DNA from: Rhizobiales bacterium CCH3-A5
GTDB lineage: Bacteria; Pseudomonadota; Alphaproteobacteria; Rhizobiales; Beijerinckiaceae
DNA: 64,000 nucleotides
Reading direction: 5' to 3'
Assembly: GCA_001556025.1 (NCBI GenBank)
Contig: LSIB01000122.1
Coordinates: 1 to 64,000 of the forward strand
Shown: one piece after another, positions 15,953-53,601 of the stretch
How positions within the stretch are numbered: the stretch's first letter is position 1
Layout: each line of letters starts with the position of its first letter
The notes under the pieces: generated by a model
Seen by the model: the letters and a program-made list of their open reading frames with translations, nothing else
Told to the model about the DNA's origin: nothing
Databases searched by the model: none
Program-made: the position numbers and the translations under genes

Positions 15953-17457
15953 CCGCGAACCTTTTCGCTTTGCGGTTTCGTCCACCAGGGCGTCGGATCG
16001 ATCGAGACGCCGTCCTTGCGGAATTCGATATAGAGGATCGGCTGCCCGGTGCCCGAGCCGACGATCGATGCCGCAGCTTCCGACGTTTCGCCCATCACTG
16101 CAACAGGTTCTCCGGCGAGAACGAACTGATTGAGCGATACGTCGATCCGCTGCATGCCGGCCAAAAGAATATAGTACCCCCCACCCGCATTCAGGATCAA
16201 CAATTGCCCGAAGGAGCGGAAGGGACCAGCATAAGCCACCCAAGCGTCAGAAGGTGCCGAAATCAGGGCATTGGGGCGGGTGCTCACAGAAATTCCGCGC
16301 GTCTGGCCGCCAACGCCGTCGTTTTCGCCAAAACCACGCAATTGTGATCCGACGGCCGGCAGCGCCAGCAGGCCCCGCGCCTCGGCAAAGGCGATCTTGG
16401 GTGCGAGTCTGGCAGGATCCTTGAAAGCGAGCGCGGCCATGCGCTGGCGCTGCTCGCGGGTCTCGGCCTCGAGCGCCTGACGTGCCGAATCGGCGGCGCG
16501 CGTCGCCGCCGAGATCTCCTTTTCCATCCGTTCGACGAAATCGCGCATGGATTTCGCCTGCGCGGCAAGCTCACCGGCCTGGCTGCGCTGGGCGTCGGCA
16601 TCCTTGGCGGCGCTGGCTTCGCGGTCGCGCCTGGCCTCGACCAGCGAGGCGAGGCGCTGGCGTTCAGTCGCGAGCTGCTCGAGCTCCGTGGTGATCGCCT
16701 TGCGTTCCGAGCCGATGCCGTCGCGCAGGCGCACCAGCTCGCCGAGGTCGGCGCTGAGGATCTCGATTTCCTGGCGCAGATCGGGAACCACAGCGCCGAG
16801 CAGCATCGAGGCGCGCACGGCTTCCAGGATGTCTTCGGGCCGCACCAGCACGGCGGGCGGCGGGCGCCGGCCGATGCGTTGCAGAGCCGCCAGAACCTCG
16901 CCGATCAGGCCGCGCCGGCCCTCCAGCGAGCGCCGGATCGCCGCCTCGCTGCTCTGCAGCAAGGCCAGCCGCTCCTCGATGGCGCTGACGCGCCGCTCGG
17001 CGGCCTGGGCGCGCCGTGTAGTCTCCAGCAGCGAGCCGTTCAGCGCGGCGCGGTCGGCGCGGATCGCGGCGATCTCGGCCTCGAGCTTCCTGCGCGCCTC
17101 CGCATTGTTCGACAGCCGCTCCTCTATCGCCTTCAGCTCGCCCTCGCGCGCCTGTTTCTCCGCCTGCTTGGTCTGGGCCTCGCGGGTGAGTTGGTCGGGA
17201 TCGGGGGTGGGGGTCTGGGCTGTGGCGGGGGCAAGCGTGAGAGCGAGCAACGCCAGACCGGCGAGCCACAACCTGTCCCCTTCCCCCCGCTTGCGGTGGG
17301 GAAAGGTTAGGGATGGGAGGGCGTGCAGAAAGAGGCTCGACTTCGCAGCCGGGCAATGACGGCCTGGACTCGGCCCCCCATCCCGACCTCCCCCACCGCA
17401 AGCAGGGGGAGGGGGGAGCGGCGTGCCTCGACGAATCAGGGAGCGCAAAAGCGTCAT
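15949..17457 (-). CDS. envC: Murein hydrolase activator (EnvC-like, degenerate LytM) with a repeat in its N-terminal coding region
   Basis: This is a periplasmic coiled-coil protein (about residues 85-370, rich in E/R/A/Q heptads) with a C-terminal LytM/M23 domain. The domain lacks the zinc ligands: the usual Y-x-H and H-x-H positions read 'YYILLAGM' and 'LYIEFRKD', as in EnvC-type activators of amidases. The frame from ATG 17457 overlaps the rlmH stop (ATGA) and runs through a two-armed palindromic repeat before reaching the signal peptide '[19 protein letters not shown]'. A TTG at 17271, after a GGAAGGGGA purine run, is a credible internal start. Either residues 8-62 are repeat-derived, or translation begins after the repeat. 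Confidence 0.85.
17276..17420. repeat. Palindromic two-armed repeat (family C) inside the envC 5' coding region
   Basis: The left arm at 17276-17316 contains CCCCGCTTGCGGTGGGG and then AGGTTAGGGATGGG. The right arm at about 17379-17420 is its near-perfect inverse (CCCATCCCGACC then CCCCCACCGCAAG). About 60 bases lie between them. The architecture matches the element at 6887-7076. The envC frame stays open through the whole element. Confidence 0.75.
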
Positions 17458-17933
17458 GCGCGATGATAGGGGTGGCCGGCGATGATCGTCATCGCCCGAT
17501 AGAGCTGTTCGAGCGCAAGCGCGCGCACGATCTGGTGGGGGATGGTCAAGGCGCCGAACGCCAGCGTGAGGTCGGCGCGGTCGCGGATGTCCTCGGCCAA
17601 ACCGTCGGCCCCGCCGATGACGAGGCTGGCATTGGCGGTGTCTGCGTCGCGCGCGGAGGCGATCTTCGCTGCGAAGGCATCGCTGGTCTGGCTCCTGCCG
17701 CGCTCGTCGAGTGCGATGACGAGACCTGGCTGGAGCTTGGCGAGGATCGCCTGGCCCTCCTCGCGCTTGCGCTCGTCGGGACGGCGGCCGCGGCTTTCCG
17801 GAATTTCGATGATGTCGGGGCCGCTGAGTCCGAGCCCGCGCCCGAGCGCGGCGGCACGCTCGCGGTAGCGTTCGCAGAGGTCGCGCTCGGGGCCGTCCTT
17901 GAGACGGCCCACGGTGATCAGCGCGAGGCGCAT
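17454..17933 (-). CDS. rlmH: 23S rRNA (pseudouridine(1915)-N(3))-methyltransferase
   Basis: This 159-residue SPOUT-family methyltransferase uses S-adenosylmethionine to methylate pseudouridine 1915 in helix 69 of 23S rRNA. Family features are '[20 protein letters not shown]' at the N-terminus, 'VIALDERGR', '[17 protein letters not shown]' (the SAM-binding knot) and the C-terminal '[12 protein letters not shown]'. It lies between rsfS and envC, a conserved ribosome-related order, and overlaps envC by 4 bases. Confidence 0.96.
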
Positions 17934-17937
17934 GACA

Positions 17938-17982
17938 GCATGATGCCGAAAAGTTGGGACCGGTTTTCAGATGACATCATGC
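17938..17982. repeat. Short palindromic repeat between rsfS and rlmH (family D)
   Basis: The 45-base element starts GCATGATGCCGAAAAG and ends GACATCATGC, with perfect 8-base inverted ends (GCATGATG/CATCATGC) and partial pairing inside (CCGAAAAG against GGTTTTCAG). It resembles short palindromes scattered through Rhizobiales intergenic regions; that comparison is from memory. It lies directly upstream of the rlmH start at 17933. Confidence 0.65.
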
Positions 17983-17999
17983 AGCGGAGAGCCGTCAGA

Positions 18000-18356
18000 T
18001 CAGCTGACGAGCCGCTCATTGGGCCGGTCGGCGCCCCACATCTTTTCCAGATTGTAGAATTGGCGCACTTCCGGGCGGAAGATGTGGACGATGATGTCGC
18101 CGGTGTCGATCAGCACCCAGTCGCAGGCCGGAACACCCTCGACCTTGGGGGCGGGCAGGCCGGACTCCTTCAGCGCCTCGACCAGCGAATCGGCGATGGA
18201 GGCGACATGGCGGTTGACGCGGCCGGACGCGATGATCATCGCGTCGGCCAGCGAGGTCTTGCCGACCAGATCGATGACGGTGACGTCCTCGGCCTTCATT
18301 TCTTCGAGGACATGCAATGCGAGGGCAACGCTATCGGCGGAGGGGTTGTCCGACAT
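18000..18356 (-). CDS. rsfS: Ribosome silencing factor
   Basis: This 118-residue RsfS/Iojap protein binds ribosomal protein L14 and blocks 30S-50S joining in starvation. Typical segments are 'LEEMKAEDVTVIDL', 'SLADAMIIASGRVNRHV', 'CDWVLIDTGDIIVHIF' and 'RQFYNLEKMWGA'. The gene sits between nadD and rlmH, its usual alphaproteobacterial position. Confidence 0.96.
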   Translation of the reverse strand: MSDNPSADSVALALHVLEEMKAEDVTVIDLVGKTSLADAMIIASGRVNRHVASIADSLVEALKESGLPAPKVEGVPACDWVLIDTGDIIVHIFRPEVRQFYNLEKMWGADRPNERLVS

Positions 18357-18480
18357 AGCGGCCTGGGGAAGCGGCGCGGGCTCGGCTTCGCCAAGGGTTT
18401 GACGGTTCAGTTCCGTATCCTCTCGATCACGACGCGCTCCTGGCGCGACAGGATCAAATTACGCCCTTCGGGGCCGAAAT

Positions 18481-19128
18481 TCAATCGGATTCGGCCTGCG
18501 CGCGCAGTTGCGTGGACGACAGCGCCGAACGCCTGCCGTGCAGAAAGACCCAGGCGGGAGCCTCCGCGCCTGCCAGCGCGCCAGCCTGGTTCTCCGAAAT
18601 TCGCCAGCGCGAGAGCCAGTTGGCGGCGGGCGAGGCGACGGCGCGGTGGGTCGAGCCTGGCCGGTCGACCACCGCGATCGGCATCATCCGGGCGATCGCG
18701 CGCCATTCATTCCAGCAGTGGAAGCTCGCCAGATTGTCGGAGCCCATGATCCAGACGAAACGGACGCCGGGGCAGCGCAGGGTCAGCGCGCGCAGCGTGT
18801 CGGCGGTGTAGCGGGTGCGGAGCTTCGCCTCGATTCCGGTGGCCTGGATACGGGCATGGTCGGCGATTTCGCGGGCGACCGCGATCCGCGCAGCGAGCGG
18901 GGGCAGGCGGGCATTGTCCTTGAGCGGATTGCCGGGCGTCACCAGCCACCAGACCCGGTCGAGCTGTAGGCGGCGCAGCGCCGTCAGGCTCGCGAGCCGA
19001 TGGCCGTCATGGGCCGGGTTGAACGTGCCGCCGAACAGGCCGATGCGCAGGCCCGGCGCATGCGGCGGCAGGCGCAAATGCTCGCCGCTCGCGACGGAAC
19101 CGGGGGGCACGACGTCGGTTCCGGTCAC
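18481..19128 (-). CDS. nadD: Nicotinate-nucleotide adenylyltransferase
   Basis: This 215-residue enzyme of NAD synthesis transfers AMP from ATP to nicotinate mononucleotide. The nucleotidyltransferase signature '[14 protein letters not shown]' is near residue 30, '[16 protein letters not shown]' is the NMN-site region, and the C-terminal 'ALSSTQLR' matches the family's ISST-x-LR motif. Translation appears to start at a GTG at 19128 that overlaps the proA stop (GTGA). The 124 bases downstream, before rsfS, show no gene. Confidence 0.95.
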
Positions 19129-20432
19129 GGCCTGATCTGGCCGTCGCCATGGACCCGGTACTTGAAGGAGCAGAGCTGCTCGACGCCGACCGGCCCGCGG
19201 GCATGCATGCGGCCCGTGGCGATGCCGATCTCCGCGCCGAAGCCGAACTCGCCACCGTCGGCGAACTGGGTCGAGGCGTTGTGCAGCACGATGGCGGAAT
19301 CGACCTCGGCGAGGAAACGGGCGGCGGCGGCTTGAACTGCCGTGACGATCGCCTCGGTGTGGCTGGAGCCAAAGCGGGTGATGTGGTCGATCGCCTCGTC
19401 GAGGCCCGCGACGACTTTGACGGCGATGGTCCTGTCGAGAAACTCGGTCGCCCAGTCAGCTTCCGTCGCCGGCGTCACGCGGGGATCGACGTCCTGCGTC
19501 GTCGCATCGCCGCGCACGGCGCAGCCGGCGTCGAGCAGGTCGATCACCAGCGGGCCGAGATGGGTTGCGGCGCAGGCCTGATCGACCAGCAGCGTTTCGG
19601 CCGCGCCGCAGACGCCGGTGCGGCGCAGTTTGGCGTTGAGCACGATGGCCCTGGCCATGGCGAGATCGGCCTGCGCATGAACGTAGACATGGCAGTTGCC
19701 GTCGAGATGGGCGAAGACCGGGACGCGCGCATCGCTCTGGACACGGGCGACGAGGCTTTTGCCGCCGCGCGGCACGACGACATCGACGCAGCCGGACAGC
19801 CCTTTCAGGATTTCGCCGACGGCGTCGCGGTCGCGGGTCGGGACGAGCTGGATCGCGTCCGCCGGAAGGCCGGCCGCCTCCAGCCCCTCGCGCAGAGCGG
19901 CGGCGATGGCGCTCGACGTGCGAAACGAGTCGGAGCCGGCGCGCAGGATCGCGGCGTTGCCGCTCTTGAGGCAGAGCGCGCCAGCATCCGCGGTCACATT
20001 GGGACGGCTCTCGAAGATGACGGCGATGACGCCGAGCGGCGTCGCGACGCGCTCGAAGCGCAGGCCATTGGGTTGCGTCCATTCGGCAGTGACGCGCCCG
20101 ACGGGGTCGGCCAGCGCCGCGACCTCGGCAACGGCGTCGGCGACGCCGTCGAGCCGGACCGCGTCGAGCATCAGCCGGTCGATGAAGGCGGCGGTCTGGT
20201 TGCCGGCTTTGGCGTCGGCGAGGTCGAGCGCGTTGGCGGCGAGGATCGCCTGCGCGTTCGCGCGCAGCGCGTCGGCCATGGCGAGCAGTGCTGCATCCTT
20301 CCGCGTCGTCGGCGCCAGCGCGACAGAGCGAGCGGCCGCCCGCGCCCGCCGGCCGAGATCGGCCATCAGCGGTGCGATGTCGACGCCGTCGTTCCCTGAT
20401 GAGACCACGCGCAGGGCGCTTTCACTCGTCAT
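19125..20432 (-). CDS. proA: Gamma-glutamyl phosphate reductase
   Basis: This 435-residue aldehyde-dehydrogenase-superfamily enzyme reduces glutamyl-5-phosphate to glutamate semialdehyde in proline synthesis. Family features are '[28 protein letters not shown]', which contains the cofactor region, and '[13 protein letters not shown]' with the catalytic cysteine. It follows proB by 31 bases and is coupled to nadD, so proline synthesis, NAD synthesis and ribosome maintenance genes share one leftward transcript. Confidence 0.96.
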
Positions 20433-20463
20433 CGCACACCTGTTCCAGCTATCCGCGCCGACC

Positions 20464-21594
20464 TTAGCCCAGCCCGAGCGCCATGTCGTCCCGGTGGATC
20501 ATCTCGGCGCGGCCGGGATAGCCCAGCACGGCGGCGATGTCGCGGGAGGCCTTGCCCAGCACAAGGGCCGCCTCGGCCGCGTCATAGGCGACGAGGCCCC
20601 GACCGAGCACGGTTCCCGTCGCATCGCGGATCAGCACCGCATCGCCGCGTGCGAAATCGCCCTCGATCCGGCTGACGCCGACCGGCAGCAGGCTCGCCCC
20701 GCCGCCGAGCGCGCGGGCCGCGCCGGCATCGACGTAAAGCGAGCCGCGCGGCTCCAGCGAGCCGGCTATCCAGGTCTTTCGCGCCGTGGCGGGCGTCGAG
20801 GCGGTGAGGAACCAGGTGCAGCGCGCGCCTTGATTTATCGCGGCGAGCGGGTTCTTGGGCCGGCCGTCTGCGATCAGCATGTGCGTGCCGCCGGCGGACG
20901 CGATTTTTCCGGCCTCGATCTTGGTGCGCATGCCGCCGCGCGACAATTCCGAGGCCGCGCCGCCCGCCATCGCGTCGATCTCTGGCGTGATGCGCTCGAC
21001 GATCGGCAGATGCCGGGCCGAGGGGTCGCTGGCGGGCGGCGCTGTATAAAGCCCGTCGATGTCGGAGAACAGCACCAGCAGGTCGGCGCCGGCCATGGTC
21101 GCGACGCGGGCGGCGAGCCGGTCGTTGTCGCCATAGCGGATCTCGGTGGTGGCGACCGTGTCGTTCTCGTTGATCACCGGAATGGCGCGCAGATCGAGCA
21201 GGCGGCCGAGCGTGGCGCGGGCATTGAGATAACGCCGGCGCTCCTCAGTGTCGGCCAGCGTCAGCAGGATCTGGCCGGCGGTGAGGCCGTGGGCTCCCAG
21301 CGCCTCGGCCCAGGTCCGGGCGAGCGAAATCTGGCCGACGGCGGCGGCAGCCTGACTTTCCTCCAGCCTGAGCGGGCCCGAGGGCAAGCCGAGCACGGTG
21401 CGCCCGAGCGCGATCGCGCCCGAGGAGACGACGAGGAGATCGGCCCCGCGCTGATGAAGTTCGGCGAGGTCCTCGGCGAGCGCCGCGAGCCAGGCCTGGC
21501 GCAGACGGCCGCGCGCCCGGTCGACGAGCAGGCTGGAGCCGACCTTGACGACGATGCGGCGGAACTGGGCGAGCGAGGGGGTCTGCACGGGCAT
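20464..21594 (-). CDS. proB: Glutamate 5-kinase
   Basis: This 376-residue kinase begins proline synthesis by phosphorylating glutamate. The amino-acid-kinase domain has '[13 protein letters not shown]' at the N-terminus, '[10 protein letters not shown]', '[14 protein letters not shown]' and '[15 protein letters not shown]'-type residues. A C-terminal PUA domain (after about residue 275) includes '[15 protein letters not shown]'. The [11 protein letters not shown] start at 21594 was chosen because the 48-residue extension from 21738 is not family-like. An obg gene often precedes proB in this order of bacteria; here the upstream neighbour is a divergent cold-shock gene instead. Confidence 0.95.
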
Positions 21595-21704
21595 GGCGCT
21601 GGGAACTGGACAAGGACAGCCCTGCCTTTGGCGAAAAGCGCGCGCTTGTAAAGCGTTGCGGCCTGCCGGCGAAGCGCGCCGCGCCGATTCAGCCGCGGGT
21701 TGCA

Positions 21705-21733
21705 TTGACAAGCGCGGTTCTAGCGCCCATATG
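21705..21733 (+). promoter_or_regulatory. Possible sigma-70 type promoter ahead of the cold-shock gene
   Basis: A perfect TTGACA at 21705-21710 is followed after 17 bases by CATATG at 21728-21733, a weak -10 match. If used, it would give the cold-shock mRNA a 5' leader of about 130 bases, as is common for cold-shock genes. The call rests only on the -35 match and the spacing. Confidence 0.35.
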
Positions 21734-21873
21734 ACCATGGTCGATATTTAGGCCGAACGACGTGGCCCCGCGCATGAGAATGCGCCTGCTGACGACCTTC
21801 ACCGCTCAAAAAATCGAAATCCTTGCGCGTGAGCGATCGCGCGCCGTCACACTACAAGCGAAAGAGGTTCGTC

Positions 21874-22083
21874 ATGGCCGCTGGCACAGTCAAATGGTTC
21901 AATTCCACCAAGGGTTTCGGCTTCATTCAGCCGGATGATGGCGGGCAGGACGTGTTCGTCCACATCAGCGCCGTCGAGCGGGCCGGAATGCGCGATCTCC
22001 GCGAGGGTCAGAAGATCTCCTACGAGATGGTTCAGGACAAGCGCTCGGGCAAGATGTCGGCCGACCAGCTTCGCGCCGAGTGA
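21874..22083 (+). CDS. Cold-shock protein (CspA family)
   Basis: This 69-residue single OB-fold nucleic-acid-binding protein has both RNA-binding motifs: RNP1 'KGFGFI' and RNP2 'DVFVHI'. The start '[17 protein letters not shown]' is canonical. Such proteins act as RNA chaperones during cold shock or general growth. An AAAGAGG stretch lies just upstream of the ATG at 21874. The gene is followed by a terminator-like hairpin and then rpsU. Confidence 0.95.
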
Positions 22084-22182
22084 GCCCAAGGGCCGCGTTG
22101 GCCTGGTCTCGGAATCGGTTAAGGCGACCGCGGATGTACCGGCGCCCGAGCCACCAGATCTGACGACGACGCGGCACGATGA

Positions 22183-22212
22183 GGGGTCGGGGTTCAAAGC
22201 CCGGCCCTTTTT
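22183..22212 (+). terminator. Terminator or attenuator between csp and rpsU
   Basis: An 8-base stem GGGTCGGG/CCCGGCCC (one G-U pair) with an 8-base loop is followed by five T residues at 22208-22212. It can end the csp transcript or attenuate read-through into rpsU, which starts 32 bases later. Confidence 0.65.
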
Positions 22213-22243
22213 CCGTCATTCCAAACGCAGGAGACAAAACGCC

Positions 22244-22507
22244 ATGCAGGTTCTCGTCCGCGACAACAATGTCGACCAGGCCCTCCGGGTCCTGAAGAAG
22301 AAGATGCAGCGCGAAGGCGTGTTCCGCGAGATGAAGCGCCGCTCGGCTTATGAGAAGCCTTCCGAGAAGCGCGTCCGCGAGAAGGCCGACGCCATCCGCC
22401 GCGCCCGCAAGGTCGCCCGCAAGCAGATGCAGCGCGAGGGCCTGATCGCCGCGCCGAAGGTCAAGCCGAAGCCGGTCCGCGCTGGAAGCCCAGCCCCCGC
22501 GCGTTGA
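22244..22507 (+). CDS. rpsU: 30S ribosomal protein S21
   Basis: This 87-residue basic protein has the S21 signature '[20 protein letters not shown]', then '[20 protein letters not shown]'. The C-terminal tail is extended and rich in lysine, proline and alanine, as is usual in Rhizobiales. S21 assists initiation on the 30S subunit. A clear ribosome-binding site (CGCAGGAGA) lies 8 bases before the ATG at 22244. Alphaproteobacteria often carry two or more S21 copies, and the csp neighbour suggests this one may be cold-linked. Confidence 0.96.
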
Positions 22508-22591
22508 TTTCGATACCAATCCGGCGCGAATTGGATTATTGCCCGCTCGCGGGCTGACCTTTCGCCCGTCTGAACCCGAAGAAGGCCGACC

Positions 22592-22969
22592 TTGAAGAAC
22601 CCGAACGACCGCAGCTTTACTGATCGCCAGTCCAACTCCGCAGCCGCCAAGAAGGCGCTTCTCGAGCGCTTCAAGGCGAGGCCGGGACCGGACGACCCGA
22701 TCATGCAGCAGCGCCGCGCGGAACGTGAGGCCGTCGCCGCCGCCCGCGCCGCCCGCGAGGCCGAGAAGGCCGCCATCCGTGCCGAAGAAGAGCGTCTCGC
22801 CGAGATCGAGCGCGCCCGCCTCGCCGAGGAGGAGCGTCTGGCCGAGATCGCCCGCGAGGTCGAGCGCAAGGCCGAGCAGGCCAGGCGCGACGCCGAGCGC
22901 CCGCGCAAGGTGCTGCTCGAGGCCGTGCAATACGCCCAGATGCGCGCCGCCGGCAAAGGTCGTCGCTGA
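22592..22969 (+). CDS. DUF6481-type small charged helical protein
   Basis: This 125-residue hydrophilic protein is almost entirely a predicted long helix of alternating E/R/A residues ('AEREAVAAARAAREAEK', 'RLAEIERARLAEEERLAEI'). Its N-terminus, 'MKNPNDRSFTDRQSNSAAAKKALLERFKARP', resembles the DUF6481 group; the family name is from memory. It has no signal peptide. The position directly after csp and rpsU recurs in related genomes by recollection and suggests a role with RNA or ribosomes. No function is established. Confidence 0.7.
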   Translation: MKNPNDRSFTDRQSNSAAAKKALLERFKARPGPDDPIMQQRRAEREAVAAARAAREAEKAAIRAEEERLAEIERARLAEEERLAEIAREVERKAEQARRDAERPRKVLLEAVQYAQMRAAGKGRR

Positions 22970-25590: not shown

Positions 25591-25612
25591 ACGCAGGCGT
25601 TTCCACTCTTGC

Positions 25613-38071: not shown

Positions 38072-38994
38072 GGCTGGTTCTCCTCGACGAGATGGAGCGC
38101 GGCCGCGTCGCCCAGCATCGCGCCGCGGTGGCCGGCCTCGCGACGGGTCTCGCAATGGTGGCTGTCGGAGCAGACGAACATGCGTCCGCCCCGGTCGTCG
38201 GTGACGACTTCGTCGAGATAGGAGTCGTTTGCACCGCAGAGGCCACAGGGCTGGCTCCAGCTCTGGATGCGGAAGGGGTGGTCGTCGAAGTCGAGGCTCC
38301 TGACGCTGGTATGCGGCGGCAGAGCGTAGATGCGCTTCTCGCGGCCGGCGCCGAAGAGCTGCAAGGCCGGCGACATGTGCATCTTGGGATTGTCGAATTT
38401 CGGGATCGGCGACGGCGCCATGACATAGCGGCCATTGACCATGACCGGGTAGTCATAGGTCGTCGTCACCTCGCCGAAGCGGGCGATGTTCTCGTAGAGC
38501 TTGACCTGCATGAGCCCATATTCGGCCCAGGCGTGCATCTTGCGCGTCTCAGTCTCGTGCGGCTCGAGCTTGCGCAGCGGCTCCGGCATCGGCACCTGGT
38601 AGACCATGATCTGGCCGGCGCTCAGCGGCGCTTCGGGAATGCGATGGCGGGTCTGGATGATCGTGGCTTCGGGCGTCGCCTCGGTCGTCTTCGCAGCCGC
38701 CGTGCGCTCGAAGAAGCGGCGGATCGAGACCGCGTTGGTGGTGTCGTCCGCGCCCTGGTCGATCACCTTCAGCGTGTCGTCGGGGCCGATGATCGCGGCC
38801 GTGACCTGGATGCCGCCGGTGCCCCAGCCGCGCGCCAGCGGCATCTCGCGCGAGCCGAACGGCACCTGGTAGCCCGGGATCGCGACGGCCTTGAGCAGCG
38901 CGCGCCGGATCATCCGCTTGGTCTGCTCGTCGAGATAGGCGTAGTTGTAAGCCGGCTTCGTATCGTCGGCGGAGAGCGTCTGGTGGATGGTCAT
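38068..38994 (-). CDS. phnJ: Alpha-D-ribose 1-methylphosphonate 5-phosphate C-P lyase
   Basis: This 308-residue radical-SAM-type C-P bond lyase breaks the carbon-phosphorus bond to give a hydrocarbon and 5-phosphoribosyl-1,2-cyclic phosphate. The cysteines needed for the 4Fe-4S cluster and catalysis are in place: 'QPCGLCGANDSYLDEVV' and 'VCSDSHHC'. 'YNYAYLDEQTKRMIRRALLKAVAIPGYQVPFGSREMP' is the conserved N-terminus. Translation is coupled to phnI and phnK by 4-base overlaps. The presence of this gene makes phosphonate degradation the firm function of the operon. Confidence 0.97.
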   Translation of the reverse strand: MTIHQTLSADDTKPAYNYAYLDEQTKRMIRRALLKAVAIPGYQVPFGSREMPLARGWGTGGIQVTAAIIGPDDTLKVIDQGADDTTNAVSIRRFFERTAAAKTTEATPEATIIQTRHRIPEAPLSAGQIMVYQVPMPEPLRKLEPHETETRKMHAWAEYGLMQVKLYENIARFGEVTTTYDYPVMVNGRYVMAPSPIPKFDNPKMHMSPALQLFGAGREKRIYALPPHTSVRSLDFDDHPFRIQSWSQPCGLCGANDSYLDEVVTDDRGGRMFVCSDSHHCETRREAGHRGAMLGDAAALHLVEENQP

Positions 38995-40181
38995 TCGGCG
39001 GCCTCCTGCAGGAGCTCGTTCTCGCGCGCCAGCCGCTCTTCGCGCTCGCGGGTGATGCGGCGGATCAGCTCGAGCTCGCCCTGGAAATCGACATAGTGCG
39101 GCAGCTTGAGGTGCTCGACGAAACCGGCCGCCTCGACATTGTCGGAGTGGTAGAGCACGAACTCATCCTGCTGGGCCGGGTAGGTCGCGGCCTCGCCGAA
39201 TTCGCGGCACTTAAGCGCCCGGTCGACCAGCGACATCGACATCGCCTTGCGCTCGGCATGTCCGAAGGCGAGGCCGTAGCCGCGCGTGAACTGGGGAGCG
39301 ACCTCTTTCGAGCCGGTGAACTGGTTGACCATCTGGCATTCGGTCAGGGTGATCTCGCCGAGATCGACCGCGAAGCCGAGTTCCTCGGGGGTGAATTCGA
39401 CAGATACCTCGCCGACCCTGATCTCGCCGACGAAGGGATGGTTGCCGCCGAAGCCGCGCTGCACGGAGTAACCGAGACCCAGCAGGAAGCCTTCGTCGCC
39501 GCGCGCCATCGCCTGCAGCCGGACATCGCGATCGGCCGGGAAGGAGACCGGCTCGCGGGTGAGATCGAAGGGGCGGGGGTCGCCTTCGGGCGGCGTCTCC
39601 GGCTCCATCAGCCCTTCCGCCCCGAGAATGTCGGGCACACGGGGCATGTGGGGATCGAGGGGAGCGACGTCATGCTCGGGCGTGACCCGAGCTTCTCCGG
39701 GCGAATGAGGCACCGGTGAAGTAAGCCCTTCTCGTCCGGAGATGGTCGGGTCAAGCCCGACCAGGACGTCGTGTCCCTCCATCAGCGCAAAGTCGAACAG
39801 ACGGTGCGTGTAGTCGTAGGTCGGCCCGAGCACCTGCCCGCCCGGCAGATCCTTGTAGGTCGCCGACACCCGCCGGCGGATCGCCATCGCGGCGGTGTCG
39901 ACCGGCTCCGACGAGCCGAAGCGCGGCAGCGTGGTGCGGTAGGCGCGCATCAGGAAGGCCGCCTCGATGACATCACCCTGCGCCTGCTTCAGGGCGAGCG
40001 CGGCGAGGTCCATGTCGTAAAGCGAGCCCTCGTTCATGACGCGTGCGCAGGCCAGGCCCTGCTGCTCGCGGATCTGCGCAACCGAGAGTTCGGGCACGGC
40101 CTCGTCGCCGCGCCGTGCCTGCGCGATCAGATCATGCGTGGCGAGGATCGCGGCCTCGCCGCCCTTCACGGCGACATACAT
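38991..40181 (-). CDS. phnI: Phosphonate C-P lyase core subunit PhnI, with a repeat-derived internal insertion
   Basis: PhnI is the nucleosidase-like core subunit that, with PhnG, PhnH and PhnL, attaches the phosphonate to ribose. The protein has 396 residues against 354 in E. coli. 'AVKGGEAAI', 'ELSVAQIREQQGLACARVMNEG', 'ALALKQAQGD' and 'LPHYVDFQGELELIRRI' are canonical. Between 'DYTHRLFDFALMEG' (ending at residue 136) and 'PHMPRVPDILGAEGL' (from residue 177) sits an extra segment of about 38 residues (137-174). It is encoded by an in-frame palindromic repeat at 39666-39773. The insertion falls in a region that is variable between PhnI proteins, so function may be kept. Confidence 0.96.
   Translation of the reverse strand: MYVAVKGGEAAILATHDLIAQARRGDEAVPELSVAQIREQQGLACARVMNEGSLYDMDLAALALKQAQGDVIEAAFLMRAYRTTLPRFGSSEPVDTAAMAIRRRVSATYKDLPGGQVLGPTYDYTHRLFDFALMEGHDVLVGLDPTISGREGLTSPVPHSPGEARVTPEHDVAPLDPHMPRVPDILGAEGLMEPETPPEGDPRPFDLTREPVSFPADRDVRLQAMARGDEGFLLGLGYSVQRGFGGNHPFVGEIRVGEVSVEFTPEELGFAVDLGEITLTECQMVNQFTGSKEVAPQFTRGYGLAFGHAERKAMSMSLVDRALKCREFGEAATYPAQQDEFVLYHSDNVEAAGFVEHLKLPHYVDFQGELELIRRITREREERLARENELLQEAAE
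39666..39773. repeat. Palindromic repeat (family A) inserted in the phnI coding region
   Basis: The element begins GACGTCATGCTCGGG and ends CCAGGACGTCGTG. It contains two hairpins, GCTCGGG-CGTGA-CCCGAGC (from 39674) and GGTCGGG-TCAAG-CCCGACC (from 39744), each a perfect 7-base stem with a 5-base loop. The intergenic element at 49602-49697 has the same plan with the arms in the other order. The length here is a multiple of three and the phnI frame stays open. Confidence 0.85.
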
Positions 40182-46320: not shown

Positions 46321-46335
46321 TTGCTAAGAGACCAT

Positions 46336-47019: not shown

Positions 47020-47110
47020 AGCGGTCGTGAAGTCCGGTGGCCGGGGCGGTTGCCCGGCCGGCGAAATTGCCGTCCCATGGCCCGGCCAGCCGCTCTCCCG
47101 GGGACCTTTC

Positions 47111-47584
47111 ATGTCGCAAACTCAGCGCCCGCCACTGCCACCCTTCACGCCCGAGACCGCAGCCCAGAAGGCGCGCATGGCCGAGGACGCCTGGAACTCG
47201 CTCGATCCGCAGCGCGTCAGCCTCGCCTATACGGCCGACAGCCGCTGGCGCAACCGCTCCGAGTTCTTCTCGGGTCGCGAGGCGATCGTGGCCTTCCTCG
47301 AACGGAAATGGGCGAGCGAGATCGAGTACCGGCTGATCAAGGAGGTCTGGGCCTTCCATGAGAACCGGATCGCGGTGCGTTTCGCCTACGAGCATCATGA
47401 CGCCGCCGGCAACTGGTATCGCTCCCATGGCAACGAGCAATGGGAGTTCGACGAGAACGGGCTGATGCGCCGACGCGAAGCCTCGATCAACGACGTCCCG
47501 ATCGCGGAGGCCGAGCGCAAGTTTCTCTGGGAAGGGCGGATCAGGCCGGCGGATTATCCGGGGCTGACGGCGCTGGCGTTGTGA
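47111..47584 (+). CDS. DUF1348 / nuclear transport factor 2-like protein
   Basis: This 157-residue protein has an NTF2-like fold of the DUF1348 type. Characteristic segments are '[32 protein letters not shown]' and '[24 protein letters not shown]'. Members are small cytoplasmic proteins of uncertain role, sometimes annotated as SnoaL-like. It follows the TetR gene by about 90 bases and may share its transcript. No enzymatic function is assigned. Confidence 0.85.
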
Positions 47585-47664
47585 CGAGGGCCGGCGCTGT
47601 CAGAGCGCGCCGGCTGCTCGAAAATCCGACTGCCGGCTAAGCGTATGGCCGCCGTCAGGCGATT

Positions 47665-47682
47665 TTGTCATGGGCCTGTCAT
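47665..47682 (+). promoter_or_regulatory. Pho box upstream of phnC
   Basis: TTGTCAT at 47665-47671 and CTGTCAT at 47676-47682, separated by GGGC, form the 7-4-7 direct repeat with 11-base periodicity that PhoB recognises. It lies about 100 bases before the phnC start. It is the only such site noticed in the window and implies that phosphonate uptake is induced by phosphate starvation. Confidence 0.85.
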
Positions 47683-47782
47683 CGTCCAACGTTAACGCTT
47701 TGTGCAGTGCAAGAACGACTGGCGTTGCGCGAGAACCGCGACGGCATTCGTTTCATGCCGTTTCGCAAGCGAGAGCCGGTTC

Positions 47783-48601
47783 ATGCTGCGTATCGAAGGC
47801 CTGACCAAGCGTTTTGGCGGCAAGGCCGCCGTCGAAAACGTCACGCTTTCGATCCCGCGCGGCGAGATGGTCGGCATCATCGGCCGCTCTGGCGCAGGCA
47901 AATCGACGCTGTTGCGCATGCTCAACCGCCTCGCCGATCCCAGCGAAGGCCGCATCCTCTCTGGCGAACGCGATGTGACCGCGCTGAAGGGCGCCGCCTT
48001 GCGCGCCTGGCGGCGCGACACGGCGATGATCTTCCAGCAGTTCAACCTGGTCGGCCGTCTCGATGTGCTGACCAATGTCCTGCTCGGCCGGCTGAACCAT
48101 CGCTCCGCGCTGCTGACGCTGGTGAAGAGCTTCTCTCAGGACGACAAGGTCCGCGCCATCGCCGCGCTTGAGCGGCTCGACATGGGTCATCTTCTGGCGC
48201 AGCGGGCCGAGACGCTGTCGGGCGGCCAGCAGCAGCGCGTCGCCATCGCCCGCGCCCTCGTGCAGGAGCCTACCGTTATCCTCGCCGACGAGCCGATCGC
48301 CTCGCTCGACCCGCGCAACACGCAGATCGTGATGGACGCGCTGTTCCGGATCAATCGCGAGGACGGCATCACCGTCATCTGTAATCTGCATCATCTCGAT
48401 ATCGCGCAGAAATACTGCGACCGGCTGATCGGCATGGCTGCCGGCAAGGTCGTCTTCGACGGGCCGCCCCACGCGCTCACCGCCGAGATCGCCGCCGAAC
48501 TCTACGGCATCGAGGCCAAGGACGCCGGCGCGGAGGCGCTCGACCAGCTCGACGCCATTGCCAGCGAAGAAGCCCAGCGCGCCAAGCAGAACGTCGCCTG
48601 A
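47783..48601 (+). CDS. phnC: Phosphonate ABC transporter ATP-binding protein
   Basis: This 272-residue ATPase energises phosphonate import. Walker A is '[20 protein letters not shown]', the signature is '[15 protein letters not shown]' and Walker B is '[13 protein letters not shown]', followed by '[17 protein letters not shown]', typical of PhnC. The ATG at 47783 gives '[17 protein letters not shown]'. It begins the phnCDE1E2 operon downstream of the Pho box. The C-terminal tail is a little longer than usual. Confidence 0.96.
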
Positions 48602-48664
48602 GCCTGCCGACCGCCTTTCCCCTGGTCCAACAGTCAAGAACCCGACCGCAACAGGAGCAAACCC

Positions 48665-49582
48665 ATGCTGACCCGTCGTCAAACCCTCACGCTCGCCGCC
48701 GCCGGCCTCGCCGTTTCGCTCGCCGCCCCGGCCTTCGCCCAGGACTGGAAGGCGAAGTATCCCGAGCTCGTCTTCGCGATCATCCCGGCCGAGAACGCGT
48801 CCGGCGTCGTCGAGCGCTACACCCCCTTCGTCAACTACCTGTCGAAGGAACTCGGCACCAAGATCACGCTGCGCATCGCCAGCGACTATGCCGCCCTGAT
48901 CGAGGGCCAGCGCGCCGGCAACATCCATATCGGCATGTACGGCCCGTCCTCCTTCGCGCGCGCGCTGATGACCGGCGCCAAGATCGACGCCTTCGCGATC
49001 GAGACCAATCTCGACGGCACCAAGGGCTATTATTCGGTTTTCTATGTGAAGAAGGATTCGCCCTATCAGAAAATCGAGGATCTGAAGGGCAAGAATCTCG
49101 GCCTCGTCGATCCGAACTCGACCTCCGGCAACAACGTACCGCGTTTCGCGCTCGACGGCATGAAGATCGATCCCGAGACCTATTTCGCCAAGGTCGTCTA
49201 TACGGGCAGCCATGAGAATGCGGTGATCGCGCTCGGCCAGGGGACCGTCGATGTCGCCGCTAACTGGTGGAACGACGAGCAGGAATCGAACCTCCTGCGC
49301 ATGGCCCGCAAGAACATGGTCAAGGCGGAAGATTTCCGGATCATCTACAAGTCCGATCAGATCGTGAACTCGCCGATGGCCTATCTTTCCGACCTCCCGA
49401 CCGATCTCAAGGCCAAGATCAAGGACGCGGTGCTGAACCTCGCCACCAAGGACAAGACCGCCTTCGACAAGATCTATGAAGGCAAGCAGGGACCGCTGCA
49501 GGCCGTCGACAACAAGGCCTATGACCCGATCATCGAACTGAACAAGTTCGTTGACGCGCTGCGCCGCAAAAAGGCGTCGTAA
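48665..49582 (+). CDS. phnD: Phosphonate-binding periplasmic protein
   Basis: This 305-residue receptor has a signal peptide (LTLAAAGLAVSLAAPAFAQ) and the PhnD pattern 'LVFAIIPAENASGVVERYTPFVNYLSKELG', 'IHIGMYGPSSFARAL' and 'LGLVDPNSTSGNNVPRFAL', in which the Ser-Thr-Ser/Gly segment binds the phosphonate oxygens. An AGGAG ribosome-binding site lies just upstream. A palindromic repeat separates it from phnE1. Confidence 0.96.
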   Translation: MLTRRQTLTLAAAGLAVSLAAPAFAQDWKAKYPELVFAIIPAENASGVVERYTPFVNYLSKELGTKITLRIASDYAALIEGQRAGNIHIGMYGPSSFARALMTGAKIDAFAIETNLDGTKGYYSVFYVKKDSPYQKIEDLKGKNLGLVDPNSTSGNNVPRFALDGMKIDPETYFAKVVYTGSHENAVIALGQGTVDVAANWWNDEQESNLLRMARKNMVKAEDFRIIYKSDQIVNSPMAYLSDLPTDLKAKIKDAVLNLATKDKTAFDKIYEGKQGPLQAVDNKAYDPIIELNKFVDALRRKKAS

Positions 49583-49601
49583 AAACGCCGCGATCCCTTT
49601 C

Positions 49602-49697
49602 CCGTCATGGTCGGCCTTGTGCCGACCATCCACGCCTTCGGTCGTCGAGCCCCGTGACCAAGACGTGGATGCTCGCCACAAGGGCGAGCATGACGAG
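49602..49697. repeat. Palindromic intergenic repeat (family A) between phnD and phnE1
   Basis: The element has outer ends CGTCATG and CATGACG. It contains GGTCGGC-CTTGT-GCCGACC (from 49609) and GCTCGCC-ACAAG-GGCGAGC (from 49671), both perfect 7-base stems with 5-base loops. It has the same plan as the copy inside phnI. It lies after the receptor gene and before the permeases, where it could protect phnD mRNA or reduce phnE translation. Confidence 0.8.
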
Positions 49698-49740
49698 GAG
49701 GGGGCCGTCGCTCAACGCCACTTCCGGCAGCAGAACCCAA

Positions 49741-50622
49741 ATGACCCTCGCGATCGACCGCAGCGACCCCGCGATCTTGGCCCATGCCGCCGCCTATCGG
49801 CAGGCCATTTCGGCCAAGCGACGGCAGACGCTGATCGGCGTCGCGATCTTCGTCGCTCTTGTGCTGGTCTCTGCCCGCGGCTCGGAGGTCGATCTGCAGA
49901 AATTCGCCGAGAACGCATGGCGTTTCCCGAAATACATTCTCGAGACCATGCCGGCGCTGCGCTGGAACAGCCTCGGCGCTGATCTTGCCGAATGGTTCTG
50001 GGGCTGGAAGGGCTGGCTCAAGCTGCTGTGGCAGACCGTGTTGATCGCCTATGTCGGCACGATCCTCGGCGCGGTCGGCGGTTTTTTGCTCTGCTTTGTC
50101 GCCGCCGCCAATCTCGGCCGCTCCGGCACCTTGCGCTTCGTCACGAGGCGCTATCTCGAATTCTGCCGCACCGTTCCCGAGATCGTGTTCGCGCTGATCT
50201 TCGTCATCGCCTTCGGGCTCGGGCCGCTGCCCGGCGTGCTTGCGATCGCGATTCACACCACAGGCGCGATGGGCAAGCTGTTCTCCGAGGTCGTCGAGAA
50301 CATCGACATGAAGCCGGTCGATGGGCTGACCGCGACGGGCGCCGGCTGGTGGCAGGTGATCCGCTTCGCGGTCGTGCCGCAGGTGCTCTCGAATTTCGCG
50401 AGCTATTCGCTGCTGCGCTTCGAGATCAATGTCCGTGGCGCTTCGATCATGGGCTTCGTCGGAGCCGGCGGCATCGGCCAGGATCTGATCGAGGCGATCC
50501 GGAAGTTCTACTTCACCGATATCAGCGCCATCCTGCTGCTGATCATCGTCACCGTGATGCTGATCGACTACGGCACCGAGCGCCTGCGCCACGCGCTGAT
50601 CAGCCTGGAGCACGGCAAATGA
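49741..50622 (+). CDS. phnE: Phosphonate ABC transporter permease PhnE (first copy)
   Basis: This 293-residue inner-membrane permease has a cytoplasmic N-terminus and about six helices. The EAA loop region is 'KPVDGLTATGAGWWQVIRFAVVPQVLSNF', and 'GFVGAGGIGQDLIEAIRKF' is the typical PhnE C-terminal motif. The frame is open upstream to 49654 through the repeat; ATG 49741 (MTLAIDRSD) is the family-like start. It overlaps the second phnE by 4 bases, so the transporter is probably a heterodimer. Confidence 0.94.
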   Translation: MTLAIDRSDPAILAHAAAYRQAISAKRRQTLIGVAIFVALVLVSARGSEVDLQKFAENAWRFPKYILETMPALRWNSLGADLAEWFWGWKGWLKLLWQTVLIAYVGTILGAVGGFLLCFVAAANLGRSGTLRFVTRRYLEFCRTVPEIVFALIFVIAFGLGPLPGVLAIAIHTTGAMGKLFSEVVENIDMKPVDGLTATGAGWWQVIRFAVVPQVLSNFASYSLLRFEINVRGASIMGFVGAGGIGQDLIEAIRKFYFTDISAILLLIIVTVMLIDYGTERLRHALISLEHGK

Positions 50623-51473
50623 GCCTCGCTTTGTCCGCCACTGAACGAGCCGCGCTCGTTTCGCGCCACAAGGCCGCGATCGACGGCTCGCTTCGCAACC
50701 GCCTGATGACGATCGCGGTCGTAGCCGGGCTCGTCGGGCTCTTCCTCTACGGGCTTTCGACGCTGGAGGTCTCGTTCTGGCGGATCATCTCGGGCTTCGG
50801 CAATCTCGGCACCTTCGTCGTGCTGATGCTGCCGCCCGATCCGGGCTCGTTCGCGCGGGCGATATTGTTCGTCAAGGCGCTGTTCGAGACGATCGCGATC
50901 GCTTTCCTCGGCACCATCCTGGGCGCGATCATCGCCTTCCCGCTCGGTTTCATCGCGGCCAAGAACGTCATCGCCAACAAGGTCGTGCATTTCCTGGCGC
51001 GGCGCTCGCTCGACACGGTGCGCGGCGTCGATGCGCTGATCTGGGCCTTGATCTGGGTCAATGTCGTGGGCCTGGGGCCTTTCGCCGGTATGCTCGCGAT
51101 CATGACCAGCGACATCGGGGCGTTCGGCAAGCTCTATTCGGAGGCGATCGAGGCCGCCGACCGCAAGCCCGTGGAGGGCGTCACCTCGATGGGCGGCGGC
51201 AAGCTGCACGAGATCCGCTTCGGCATGATCCCGCAGGTGCTGCCGGTGATCGCGAGCCAGGTGCTGTACTATATCGAGTCCAACACGCGCTCCTCGACCA
51301 TCATCGGCATCGTCGGGGCCGGCGGCATCGGGCTTTATCTCGCCGAGACCATCCGCACGCTGGAATGGCAGCAGGTTTCTTTCCTGATCCTGCTGATCCT
51401 CGCCGCTGTGACCGCGATCGACTTCATCTCGAGCAAATTGCGCTTCGCGATCATCGGCAAGCGCGCCATCTGA
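50619..51473 (+). CDS. phnE: Phosphonate ABC transporter permease PhnE (second copy)
   Basis: This 284-residue permease is paralogous to the preceding one. It has about six helices, the EAA-type loop 'KPVEGVTSMGGGKLHEIRFGMIPQVLPVIAS' and 'GIVGAGGIGLYLAETIRTL'. The ATGA overlap with the first copy implies equal synthesis. The gene ends 7 bases before the stop of the convergent pbpC gene, leaving no room for a separate terminator outside coding sequence. Confidence 0.94.
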   Translation: MSLALSATERAALVSRHKAAIDGSLRNRLMTIAVVAGLVGLFLYGLSTLEVSFWRIISGFGNLGTFVVLMLPPDPGSFARAILFVKALFETIAIAFLGTILGAIIAFPLGFIAAKNVIANKVVHFLARRSLDTVRGVDALIWALIWVNVVGLGPFAGMLAIMTSDIGAFGKLYSEAIEAADRKPVEGVTSMGGGKLHEIRFGMIPQVLPVIASQVLYYIESNTRSSTIIGIVGAGGIGLYLAETIRTLEWQQVSFLILLILAAVTAIDFISSKLRFAIIGKRAI

Positions 51474-51480
51474 CTCCGCG

Positions 51481-53601
51481 CTATTGGAGGCGGACAGAGA
51501 CGCTCTCGCTGACGCCGGCTGAGTCGATCACGGAAATCCGCACGAAGCCGCGCCCGCCGGGCTGCCAGGCGGCCTCGCGCCGGCGGGTGGGCGACAGTAC
51601 CGGCGCGCCATCGACCAGCCAGGTGAAGGGCGGCGCGCCGCCGGTGACCTTGAGGTTGAGGAGTGCGCGGCCATCGACGGCCGAGGCGGCGAGGTCGATG
51701 CGCGCGCCCTCCGGCGGGAAGGCAAGCTTGAGCGTGGGCGTCGCCATGGCCAACACGGTCTTGGGGATGTCCTGTCGCAGATGGCGCAAGGGCGGCGGCA
51801 ATTGCGCGGCGCTGGCGGTGATCGCATCCGCCGGCATCGGGAAGGCGCGCGGGTCGATCCCGAGCCTCGCGAAGGCGTCGAACAGGATCGGAGCCGCCAC
51901 GCTGCGCCCAACGAGGCCGGGCACCGCGCCATTGTCGGCCCGCCCGACCCAGACGCCGATCGTGTGCTTGCGGTCGAACCCGACCGCCCAGGCGTCGCGA
52001 TAGCCGTAAGAGGTGCCGGTCTTGTATGCGATGCGGCCGGGAGCGGCGTTGAGCGGCGGCGGCGCGCCGAGCAGCGTATCGGCGACATACCAGGCGGCGA
52101 CCGGATCGACGAGGCGAAGCGGGAGCGCCTCCGCCGAGGGGGAAGATTTGACGGTCAACTCCGACATCTGCCCGCCGCGCGCCAGCCCGACATAAAGCCG
52201 CGTCAGGTCCGACAGCGTGATGCCAAGGCCGCCGAGACCGACCGCCAGCCCCGGCGCGCCGCCCTCCTTGGGCATGGCGACCGTGACCCCTGCATCGCGC
52301 AGCCGCGACAGGAAGCGCTGCGGCCCAACCGCCGAGAGCAACTCGACAGCCGGCAAGTTGAGCGAGAGCTGCAGCGCCTTTCGCGCGGACACCATGCCCT
52401 GGAACGTCATATCGAAGTTCTCGGGCACATAGATGCCGTAGCGCGTCGGCCGGTCCTCCAGCATCGTTTCGGGATGGGCGAGGCCGTTGTCGAAGGCGAG
52501 CGCGTAGATCAAAGGCTTCAGCGCCGAGCCGGGCGAGCGCAGCGCACGCGTCAGGTCGAGCGAGCCGGCGCGCTCGGCGGCGAAATAGTCGACGCCGCCG
52601 ACCGAGGCGCGGATCGCGCCGGTGTCGTTGTCGACCACGAGGATCGCGGTCGAGACCTGAGGCGGCAACGTCACGACGCGCTCGCGGGCGAGGCTTTCGA
52701 GATTGGACTGCAGGCGCGCATCGAGGGTAAGCCGGTGGACGGGCTCAGCGGGAGCCTGCGCCACGACCTGCTCGGCGACATGCGGGGCGAGGTTGGGGAA
52801 GGGTTTTCGCGCAGCGGGGATCGGCTCGTCGCGGGCGGCGGCGATTTCGGCCGACGTAACTAGTCCTGCTCTGGCTGCACGAGCCAGGACGCGGTCACGG
52901 GCGCGCTCGGCGGTGGCGGCGAAGCGGTCGGGACGGCGCTGCTCGGGGGCTTGCGGCAGGGCCACCAGAAGCGCGGCCTCGGCAGTCGAGAGCCGCTTCG
53001 GCTCCTTGCCGAAATAGGCGAAGCTCGCTGCGCGCACGCCTTCGAGATTGCCGCCAAAGGGGGCGAGCGTCAGATAGAGATCGAGAATGCGGGCCTTTTC
53101 GAATCGCCGCTCCAGCTCGATGGCGCGCACCGCCTGCCTGAGCTTGGCGGCAAGCGAGCGCTCCTCGCGCGGCTCCAGCAGCCGGGCGACCTGCATCGAG
53201 AGCGTCGAGCCGCCGGAGACGATGCGGCCGTTCGCGAGCGCCTGCCATGCGGCGCGGGCCATGCCGAGCGGATCGATGCCGGCATGGCTGTCGAAGCGCT
53301 TGTCCTCATAGGCCTTCAGCATGGCGAGGTAACGTGGATCGACGTCGGCATGCGTGACCGGCAGCTTCCAGCGGCCGTCATCGGTCAGGAAAGGCCGCAG
53401 CAGACGGCCCTCGCGGTCGAGCACGACGGTGGAGCGATCGGAGGCGGTTGTGAGGTCGAGCGGGGGGAGGCTGGCGGCGTAGGCGAGGAGGGCGGCGCAC
53501 CCCGTCATTGCGAGGAGCGTCAGCGACGAAGCAATCCAGCGGGCTGCGCGACGGCTCCTGGGTTGCTTCGCTGCGCTCGCAATGACGCCTGGCACTTCCA
53601 T
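51481..53601 (-). CDS. pbpC: Penicillin-binding protein 1C, with a repeat in its N-terminal coding region
   Basis: This 706-residue bifunctional-type murein synthase has a membrane anchor, a glycosyltransferase-51 domain (about residues 60-240: 'YEDKRFDSHAGIDPLGMARAAWQAL', 'GGSTLSMQVARLLEP'), a transpeptidase domain with the SxxK motif 'SPGSALKP' and 'YKTGTSYGYRDAWAVGF', and a C-terminal BiPBP_C domain. The frame from ATG 53601 lies 4 bases after the upstream alpha-2-macroglobulin stop and runs through an 85-base palindromic repeat, which would encode 'VIASAAKQPRSRRAARWIAS'. A second ATG at 53508 (MTGCAALLAYAA) would avoid it but lacks a clear ribosome-binding site. Pairing with alpha-2-macroglobulin is a classic arrangement. 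Confidence 0.93.
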   Translation of the reverse strand: MEVPGVIASAAKQPRSRRAARWIASSLTLLAMTGCAALLAYAASLPPLDLTTASDRSTVVLDREGRLLRPFLTDDGRWKLPVTHADVDPRYLAMLKAYEDKRFDSHAGIDPLGMARAAWQALANGRIVSGGSTLSMQVARLLEPREERSLAAKLRQAVRAIELERRFEKARILDLYLTLAPFGGNLEGVRAASFAYFGKEPKRLSTAEAALLVALPQAPEQRRPDRFAATAERARDRVLARAARAGLVTSAEIAAARDEPIPAARKPFPNLAPHVAEQVVAQAPAEPVHRLTLDARLQSNLESLARERVVTLPPQVSTAILVVDNDTGAIRASVGGVDYFAAERAGSLDLTRALRSPGSALKPLIYALAFDNGLAHPETMLEDRPTRYGIYVPENFDMTFQGMVSARKALQLSLNLPAVELLSAVGPQRFLSRLRDAGVTVAMPKEGGAPGLAVGLGGLGITLSDLTRLYVGLARGGQMSELTVKSSPSAEALPLRLVDPVAAWYVADTLLGAPPPLNAAPGRIAYKTGTSYGYRDAWAVGFDRKHTIGVWVGRADNGAVPGLVGRSVAAPILFDAFARLGIDPRAFPMPADAITASAAQLPPPLRHLRQDIPKTVLAMATPTLKLAFPPEGARIDLAASAVDGRALLNLKVTGGAPPFTWLVDGAPVLSPTRRREAAWQPGGRGFVRISVIDSAGVSESVSVRLQ
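53503..53587. repeat. REP-like palindrome (family B) inside the 5' end of pbpC
   Basis: The 85-base element has perfect 12-base inverted ends, CGTCATTGCGAG and CTCGCAATGACG. Inside are GACGAAGCAATCCAG and GGGTTGCTTCGCTGCG, which are complementary over the core GAAGCAA. The type is a common intergenic repeat of Hyphomicrobiales by recollection. Here it covers codons about 5-33 of the pbpC frame. Confidence 0.85.

Follow-up and report, generated by a model that had tools for sequence, protein, structure and literature searches.

Palindromic sequences that lie in frame within genes are known in Rickettsia and Wolbachia. The short Rickettsia palindromic elements (RPEs) occur at solvent-exposed places of conserved proteins, and orthologues carry RPE-4, RPE-6 or RPE-7 depending on the species; in the excerpted sections of the R. 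japonica paper, the genes with such differing elements include PBP1C and two tRNA synthetases, and the authors weigh hotspots against common origin, prefer common origin and leave hotspots open (PMC3767692). We analysed a stretch of 64,000 nucleotides (contig LSIB01000122.1 of Rhizobiales bacterium CCH3-A5; hereafter the window), in which a palindrome lies in frame inside phnI, the gene for the C-P lyase core subunit PhnI. By its sequence, the window belongs to Bosea or to a close relative of that genus: of the genomes compared, the nearest (G001) has 20% of sampled 31-letter words in common with it, and the closest phnI loci bearing organism names are those of Bosea, a genus of free-living soil bacteria. 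Across Bosea, the same PhnI loop holds different palindromes, of families A, C1, C2 or D, or none. This change of family at one site between species goes beyond the earlier note on this DNA, whose comparison with RPEs was borne out in that segments are added in frame to conserved genes.

Likeness in sequence to the RPEs rests on the class of CGTC repeats, to which RPE-4 and RPE-6 belong according to the excerpted part of PMC3733652. In contrast to RPE-4, -6 and -7, the Bosea families show no relationship to one another in BLAST comparisons, one family takes the place of another between near relatives, and the host is free-living, with 68% GC in the window. In the parts of PMC3733652 drawn on, different repetitive extragenic palindromes (REPs) are reported at about the same recB site in two Xanthomonas species, but no analysis of turnover such as that given here was met in that account. 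REPs are also described as targets of insertion sequences (PMC1525189, in part), and repeats between genes in Bradyrhizobium (PMC5082802, in part). A literature search, judged on titles and abstract openings with few subscription papers, returned no such turnover in Bosea, the nearest accounts being PMC3767692 and PMC3733652. Thus, in-frame palindromes themselves are known, and what appears new from the sequences is the replacement of one family by a sequence-unrelated one at fixed protein sites.

Palindrome families in the window

The earlier note had claimed inverted-repeat structure at five places, and we indeed found it at all five.

39666..39773: CGTC-type REP dimer of family A, its units head to head, lying in the phnI frame as residues 137-172
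49602..49697: intergenic element of family A; matches an A element over 28 bases (89%)
17276..17420: palindrome of family C1 at the envC 5' end, ahead of the signal sequence; matches an insert in CobN from another Bosea over 48 bases (94%)
53503..53587: CGTC-tagged palindrome of family B at the pbpC 5' end, encoding residues 5-33; matches a CobN insert over 31 bases (97%)
6887..7076: intergenic palindrome of C type; matches a GlyS insert over 23 bases (91%)

The first four were folded as single-stranded DNA against 200 dinucleotide shuffles per element. As a result, z-scores of -8.1 (39655-39785), -8.4 (49595-49705), -6.3 (17270-17419) and -5.1 (53500-53590) were obtained, and none of the 200 shuffles was as stable in any case. 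An Rfam scan of the window returned nothing at the gathering threshold. The match of 49602-49697 to an A element agrees with the copy of this family that had been claimed outside genes. The corresponding claim for family C held in part, since 6887-7076 and the envC element are built alike, yet BLAST at E 1e-3 did not match the two; 'family C' therefore comprises at least two subfamilies. Likewise, the open reading frames (ORFs) of envC, phnI and pbpC do stay open through their repeats, as claimed, but only the phnI repeat is internal. The window holds one internal case plus two at 5' ends, and three equal in-gene cases are thereby ruled out.

The family A unit, read by eye, is CGTC ATGGTCGGG CTTGA CCCGACCAT. 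A pattern made from A units matched all 33 of the Bosea-genus genomes scanned (33 of 37; G021, G026, G031 and G034 left out) and its reversed control none; these and all other genome-wide counts come from relatives of the window rather than from its own assembly. Family A has the features of the CGTC-tagged REPs: the CGTC tag, a stem of 8-9 bp with an AT foot, a loop of 4-5 bases, and an arrangement mostly as head-to-head dimers mostly outside genes (in G010). As far as the excerpted description goes (Di Nocera et al. 2013, PMC3733652), it shares with that class the CGTC start, 9-bp stem, 5-base loop, inward pairs, mostly extragenic location and occurrence in alphaproteobacteria, and B and F share, by eye only, a CGTC or GTC-AT start. 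By contrast, neither the tag nor an AT-footed stem was seen by eye in C1, C2, D and H (in two C1 copies, the stem is preceded by TGTC, which that paper accepts as a variant, but there is no AT foot), and the phnI copies of A are mostly without the CCA tail: the three-base tail is CCA at the left unit of 49602-49697 and CTC in most phnI copies.

An internal insertion in PhnI

38991..40181, minus strand: phnI, C-P lyase core subunit PhnI, 396 aa; PF05861, E 2.7e-157; sequence match to the solved chains 7z15_C and 4xb6_C

The phnI element makes up residues 137-172 of 396, within the PhnI domain (1-379), and 44 residues separate LFDFALM from MPRVPD in the window protein. In more distant loci (L107-L170, 62 of 64 read; nearly all from other genera, although L111 groups with Bosea), this loop has 16-22 residues in 56 of 62 cases and 27-46 in the other six. 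The equally long segments in relatives without the repeats, which the earlier note had named as grounds for giving up its claim, were thus not what we found for PhnI, and on the sequences the phnI palindrome is a true internal in-frame insertion.

Several families at the PhnI loop

We then placed the loop states on a tree of 2.8 kb of flanking phn DNA with the loop removed (40 rows, 38 of them from the Bosea genus, window included; the short-looped L023, L109 and L111 were left out, L111 having stood among Bosea in an earlier tree). Among the 38 rows, 26 were occupied, remnants included: 14 by A (two of them remnants), 8 by C2 (among them a half copy and a copy in which another palindrome is nested) and 4 by D, with the loop short in the remaining 12. 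Of the best 120 PhnI proteins, 119 were read and classed by peptide pattern (68 A, 18 C2, 15 D-like with three doubtful, 5 C1, 11 short and 2 other); the C1 of these five proteins is the family of the window envC repeat. The flank tree requires 17 or more changes between the states A, C2, D and short (15 or more if the three remnants are omitted), with 8 changes for the 8 C2 rows and 4 for the 4 D rows. Support of 100/100 was obtained both for a clade of eight A rows and for the grouping of the window (A) with its sister L010 (D).

Among twelve close pairs compared, ten had different states and two were alike. In the three pairs holding two different families (flanks 0.83-0.96 identical), the inserts were as unlike as shuffles: L012 (D) and L024 (C2) have flanks 96% identical and an insert identity of 0.31 against a shuffle value of 0.30 ± 0.01, and the values were 0.46 against 0.44 for the window and L010, and 0.40 against 0.40 for L014 and L020. 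The like-state pairs were more alike (L012/L013, 0.82; L008/L015, 0.55 against 0.42). One site therefore carries several families, with unrelated inserts between near-identical flanks. In addition, a second palindrome is nested in the first hairpin of the C2 insert of L024, and remnant-like loops were found in L015, L017 and L098.

Homologous recombination of tiny tracts, shuffling old loop alleles (A, C2, D, short) between Bosea species, would also produce the homoplasy seen on the flank tree, and it would suit the finding that each family stands in one reading frame in the PhnI loops inspected. However, the 60 bases beside the insert are as identical as those further out in most pairs (0.80-0.98), so that the tracts would have to be about as small as the insert itself, and a local source of D exists, since the four genomes with D in phnI (G001, G003, G008 and G020) each carry D elsewhere too. 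We therefore hold this origin to be unlikely.

The insert was further compared with its flanks by codon position in the 12 full-A rows. Identities at positions 1/2/3 were 0.96/0.97/0.72 in the left flank and 0.95/0.97/0.73 in the right flank, and 0.91/0.90/0.91 and 0.95/0.95/0.95 in the A stems. Since third positions diverge most in the flanks, these encode protein under selection, whereas the stems bear no codon-position signal and so do not evolve as peptide; by this comparison the PhnI insert peptide looks like a passenger. The high third-position likeness in the stems could reflect insertions of recent date, gene conversion by copies elsewhere, or a constraint on the hairpin. In the last case, the hairpin itself would be selected as DNA or RNA (through mRNA stability, pausing or co-translational folding), any palindrome would serve, and turnover would be an exchange of equivalents. 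Different families at one place, stem third positions of 0.91-0.95 against 0.72 in the flanks, and the frequent hairpins and motifs at the pbpC junction, above random stretches (see below), would all agree with such selection, but the loop is only short in 12 of 38 Bosea-genus rows and 56 of 62 distant loci, and the stem likeness may stem from recent insertion or gene conversion. Selection on the hairpin thus seems to us an improbable account of the turnover.

Further sites in GlyS and CobN

Loci of D led to glyS and those of C2 to cobN. Among 30 D loci, six entries flagged as in-gene represent five distinct copies, in phnI of three genomes and glyS of two, and among 30 C2 loci two were flagged, in phnI and cobN. 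At GlyS site 1 (27 of 30 loci read), D was present in two loci and a C1 type in one, and at GlyS site 3, C-type palindromes were found in 6 of 30 and a short hairpin in one more. CobN site 3, which falls inside the CobN Pfam domain, held B in 7, F in 8, C1 in 2 and H in 3 of the 28 loci read out of 30, and was short or a remnant in 8 (families assigned by eye, folding z against 100 base shuffles). CobN site 2 held C2 types, with nested palindromes at the C2 hairpin tips in L369 and L377, in the latter on both tips. C2 is common to GlyS and PhnI (98% over 45 bases), as is D (94% over 31 bases). Palindromes in the open, predicted frames of conserved genes were thus found for PhnI, GlyS and CobN. 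The idea that repeat insertion is a recurring source of in-frame segments, put forward in the earlier note, stands in that insertion recurs in these three genes across the genus, and falls as regards three comparable in-gene insertions within 64 kb.

A BLAST comparison of 15 representative inserts (E 1e-3; one representative each for F and H) gave seven matching pairs, all within families (two in A, one in B, two in C1, one each in C2 and D); there were no cross-family matches, and the F and H representatives matched none of the others. A single old insertion per site, diverged into different-looking 'families', would account for the conserved sites and for the A copies of PhnI being mostly of the same unit types (in the 12 full-A rows, the right unit is of CT type in all and the left of GT type in 10). 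However, near relatives with 96% flank identity hold unrelated inserts, and families without any match to each other recur across genes, C2 and D in GlyS and PhnI and C1 in CobN and the window envC. We rejected one diverged insertion per site on the unrelated inserts between near relatives, and give it hardly any credence.

Small repeats inserted into one another, as in Bosea, are also described in the pneumococcal BOX/RUP/SPRITE clusters, but those are intergenic, regulatory or in pseudogenes in the excerpted account (PMC10969869), whereas the Bosea nesting is in frame within coding loops.

At cobN site 2 of L369, L374, L376 and L377, the C2 insert contains a nested palindrome whose peptide resembles PISGLPEMGNPECQSRQQPTLM; in L377, it stands at both hairpin tips. 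In GlyS beta of L322-L351, a segment of about 10-110 residues before DLLSFFHDRLK varies strongly among Bosea as if repeatedly replaced, and looks unlike the repeats. A second, divergent GlyS beta (59% identity) adjoins the normal one at G032:C97:1926-4133, and may be foreign DNA in the assembly.

Scarcity of copies inside genes

Copies inside and outside genes, a count that the earlier note had proposed, were scored in the relative G010 (one contig), where the A unit pattern occurs at 157 places and its reversed control at none. By an ORF and codon-usage test, only one of 91 A loci, the phnI copy, was scored inside a gene; the same loci shifted by -500, +500, -700 and +700 bp gave 70, 68, 52 and 55, and random window places 389 of 1000. 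In-gene insertion is thus rare for family A. Among the 91 loci were 42 inward-facing pairs, two of them counted twice through overlapping loci, and 25 of the 42 combined GT with CT in either order. D matched in 9 of 33 genomes at 75 loci, and four of these 75, which may not be independent, are the phnI loop. The phnI copy of G016 is one of 6 C2 units found there, and the C1 pattern, which is narrow and undercounts this family, occurs at 4 places in G010, 2 of them in glyS. Two comparisons were dropped. One set the 4 of 9 D-bearing genomes that have D in phnI against 0 of the 24 others, although a genome lacking D could not have it there; without this comparison, recombination of tiny tracts gained slightly in likelihood, and repeated colonisation (see below) lost slightly. 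The other consisted of chance figures for D in phnI, which treat inherited copies as independent.

Two D units stand about 410 bp apart in G001 (C11:25652/26062), G008 (C11:1068457/1068867) and G011 (C13:484089/484499), perhaps as the ends of a longer element.

Probable repeated colonisation of tolerant loops

We consider it probable that REP-like palindromes repeatedly colonise, and replace one another in, tolerant enzyme loops. The elements would be REP-like palindromic repeats without genes of their own; selection would remove most in-gene insertions, so that copies remain between genes. A few loops of conserved enzymes would tolerate in-frame inserts and be colonised more than once, namely PhnI at about residues 135-178, two GlyS sites and three CobN sites. 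An occupied loop would then become a landing place for other palindromes, some nested in its hairpin, internal deletion would leave short remnants, and one family would give way to another as purifying selection continues to act on the enzyme outside the loop, with the insert peptide as a tolerated passenger. Here, we infer tolerance as the reason for the chosen sites, the landing-pad behaviour, deletion as the exit and translation of the insert. A stronger version, in which codon positions of conserved enzymes would be standing docking sites where unrelated palindromes are exchanged by insertion into hairpins and palindrome-provoked deletion, the hairpin possibly being kept by selection, is tentative and in our judgement rather doubtful; were it true, a protein loop would be a genomic niche for selfish palindromes.

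Several points weigh against repeated colonisation. The loop states are somewhat clustered on the flank tree, since shuffled labels need 20.6 changes on average and were as low as the observed number in 6 of 200 cases; fewer changes than the shuffled mean imply some inheritance of loop state. Going by the unit types in the 12 full-A rows, most of the A copies in PhnI probably go back to one old insertion, with the other families as later replacements; part of the counted changes may be losses or replacements, and recombination of tiny tracts between species may be an alternative source of the loop pattern. Among the seven close pairs with a short-loop partner, three were at shuffle level and four above it (L012/L025, 0.52 against 0.42; L013/L025, L017/L019 and L011/L027), a likeness to be expected from loop ends common to both partners. 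At CobN site 3, folding was weak for two F copies (L368, z -1.9; L381, z -1.6), and family H was met only at its cobN site. The 91 A loci of G010 were built from 97 units (at most one mismatch) out of the 157 found, and the in-gene test misses copies, as L280, the phnI copy of G033, went unflagged. Finally, AlphaFold gives a weak hint of disorder in the PhnI loop: a first model from 30 near-identical sequences had a mean predicted local distance difference test score (pLDDT) of 35, and a second from 55 sequences reached 66, with loop 137-171 below 50 and without secondary structure, but the pLDDT is also low at 113-131 and 351-368. The second model matched E. coli PhnI (7z17_C) at template modelling (TM) scores of 0.57/0.64.

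The turnover in Bosea bears on the choice between hotspots and old common insertions left open for Rickettsia in the excerpted discussion of PMC3767692. With dozens of Bosea genomes and near relatives differing at one codon position, gain, loss and replacement become datable and testable, PhnI is part of an enzyme complex of known structure, and growth on phosphonate offers an assay for the cost of an insert. For annotation, repeat-made VMVGLDPTIS or RHCERSEAIQ inside conserved frames need not signal a false gene.

Repeats at the 5' ends of envC and pbpC

15949..17457, minus strand: envC-like M23 peptidase ORF; Peptidase_M23 PF01551; overlapped at its first ATG by the end of the SPOUT methyltransferase gene upstream (17454-17933)
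17269..17271, minus strand: TTG in frame behind the repeat, at which envC may alternatively start
51481..53601, minus strand: pbpC, penicillin-binding protein 1C, 706 aa; PF00912, PF00905, PF06832

The envC element makes up residues 13-61 of 502 and precedes the hydrophobic signal sequence. The in-frame TTG behind it is preceded by AAGGGGACAGG, a ribosome-site-like stretch, so that a start after the repeat is possible. At the methyltransferase-envC junction, z was under -3 in 4 of 25 readable loci (the window, L061, L062 and L066), no more than in random window stretches (4 of 40), which rules out that nearly every Bosea has a repeat before envC.

The pbpC element makes up residues 5-33 of 706, where pbpC adjoins the macroglobulin gene upstream of it, and supplies about half of the PbpC membrane segment. 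The best 19-residue hydropathy was 1.79 with the repeat and 1.18 when starting at the ATG of the repeat tail, as compared with 1.86-1.89 in three relatives (starts chosen by hand). Since a start after the repeat leaves a weaker membrane segment, the pbpC repeat is probably translated. Family motifs were present at this junction in 25 of 26 loci, and z was under -3 in 17 of 26; in the controls, motifs occurred in 118 of 1000 stretches from gene bodies and in 69 of 1000 from the window, and z under -3 in 4 of 40 window stretches. The window junction itself had z -0.9, with B present.

For these two genes, the chances are about even that the repeats are untranslated 5' elements with the true starts after them. 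The position of the repeats within codons 13-61 (envC) and 5-33 (pbpC), the TTG with its ribosome-site-like stretch, and the NH2-terminal REP misannotation described in the excerpted part of PMC3733652 would agree with this, and the weaker hydrophobic segment left by a later pbpC start speaks against it. Repeat-coded N-termini with ambiguous start codons are plausible from the sequences for envC of G001 and pbpC of the window. They resemble the repeat-coded hydrophobic N-termini of YPAL/RU-2 and ERIC (Delihas 2007), although those are other element families and no enzyme site with family turnover is described in the excerpted part of that paper (PMC2229807).

Where the window has C1, its relative L061 (the envC locus of G001) has a B-type repeat, from which the hydrophobic part of the EnvC signal sequence is encoded. 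In L031, L033, L040, L042 and L044-L046, the tail of an A repeat appears to supply the pbpC ATG, with the peptide MT... directly after the repeat.

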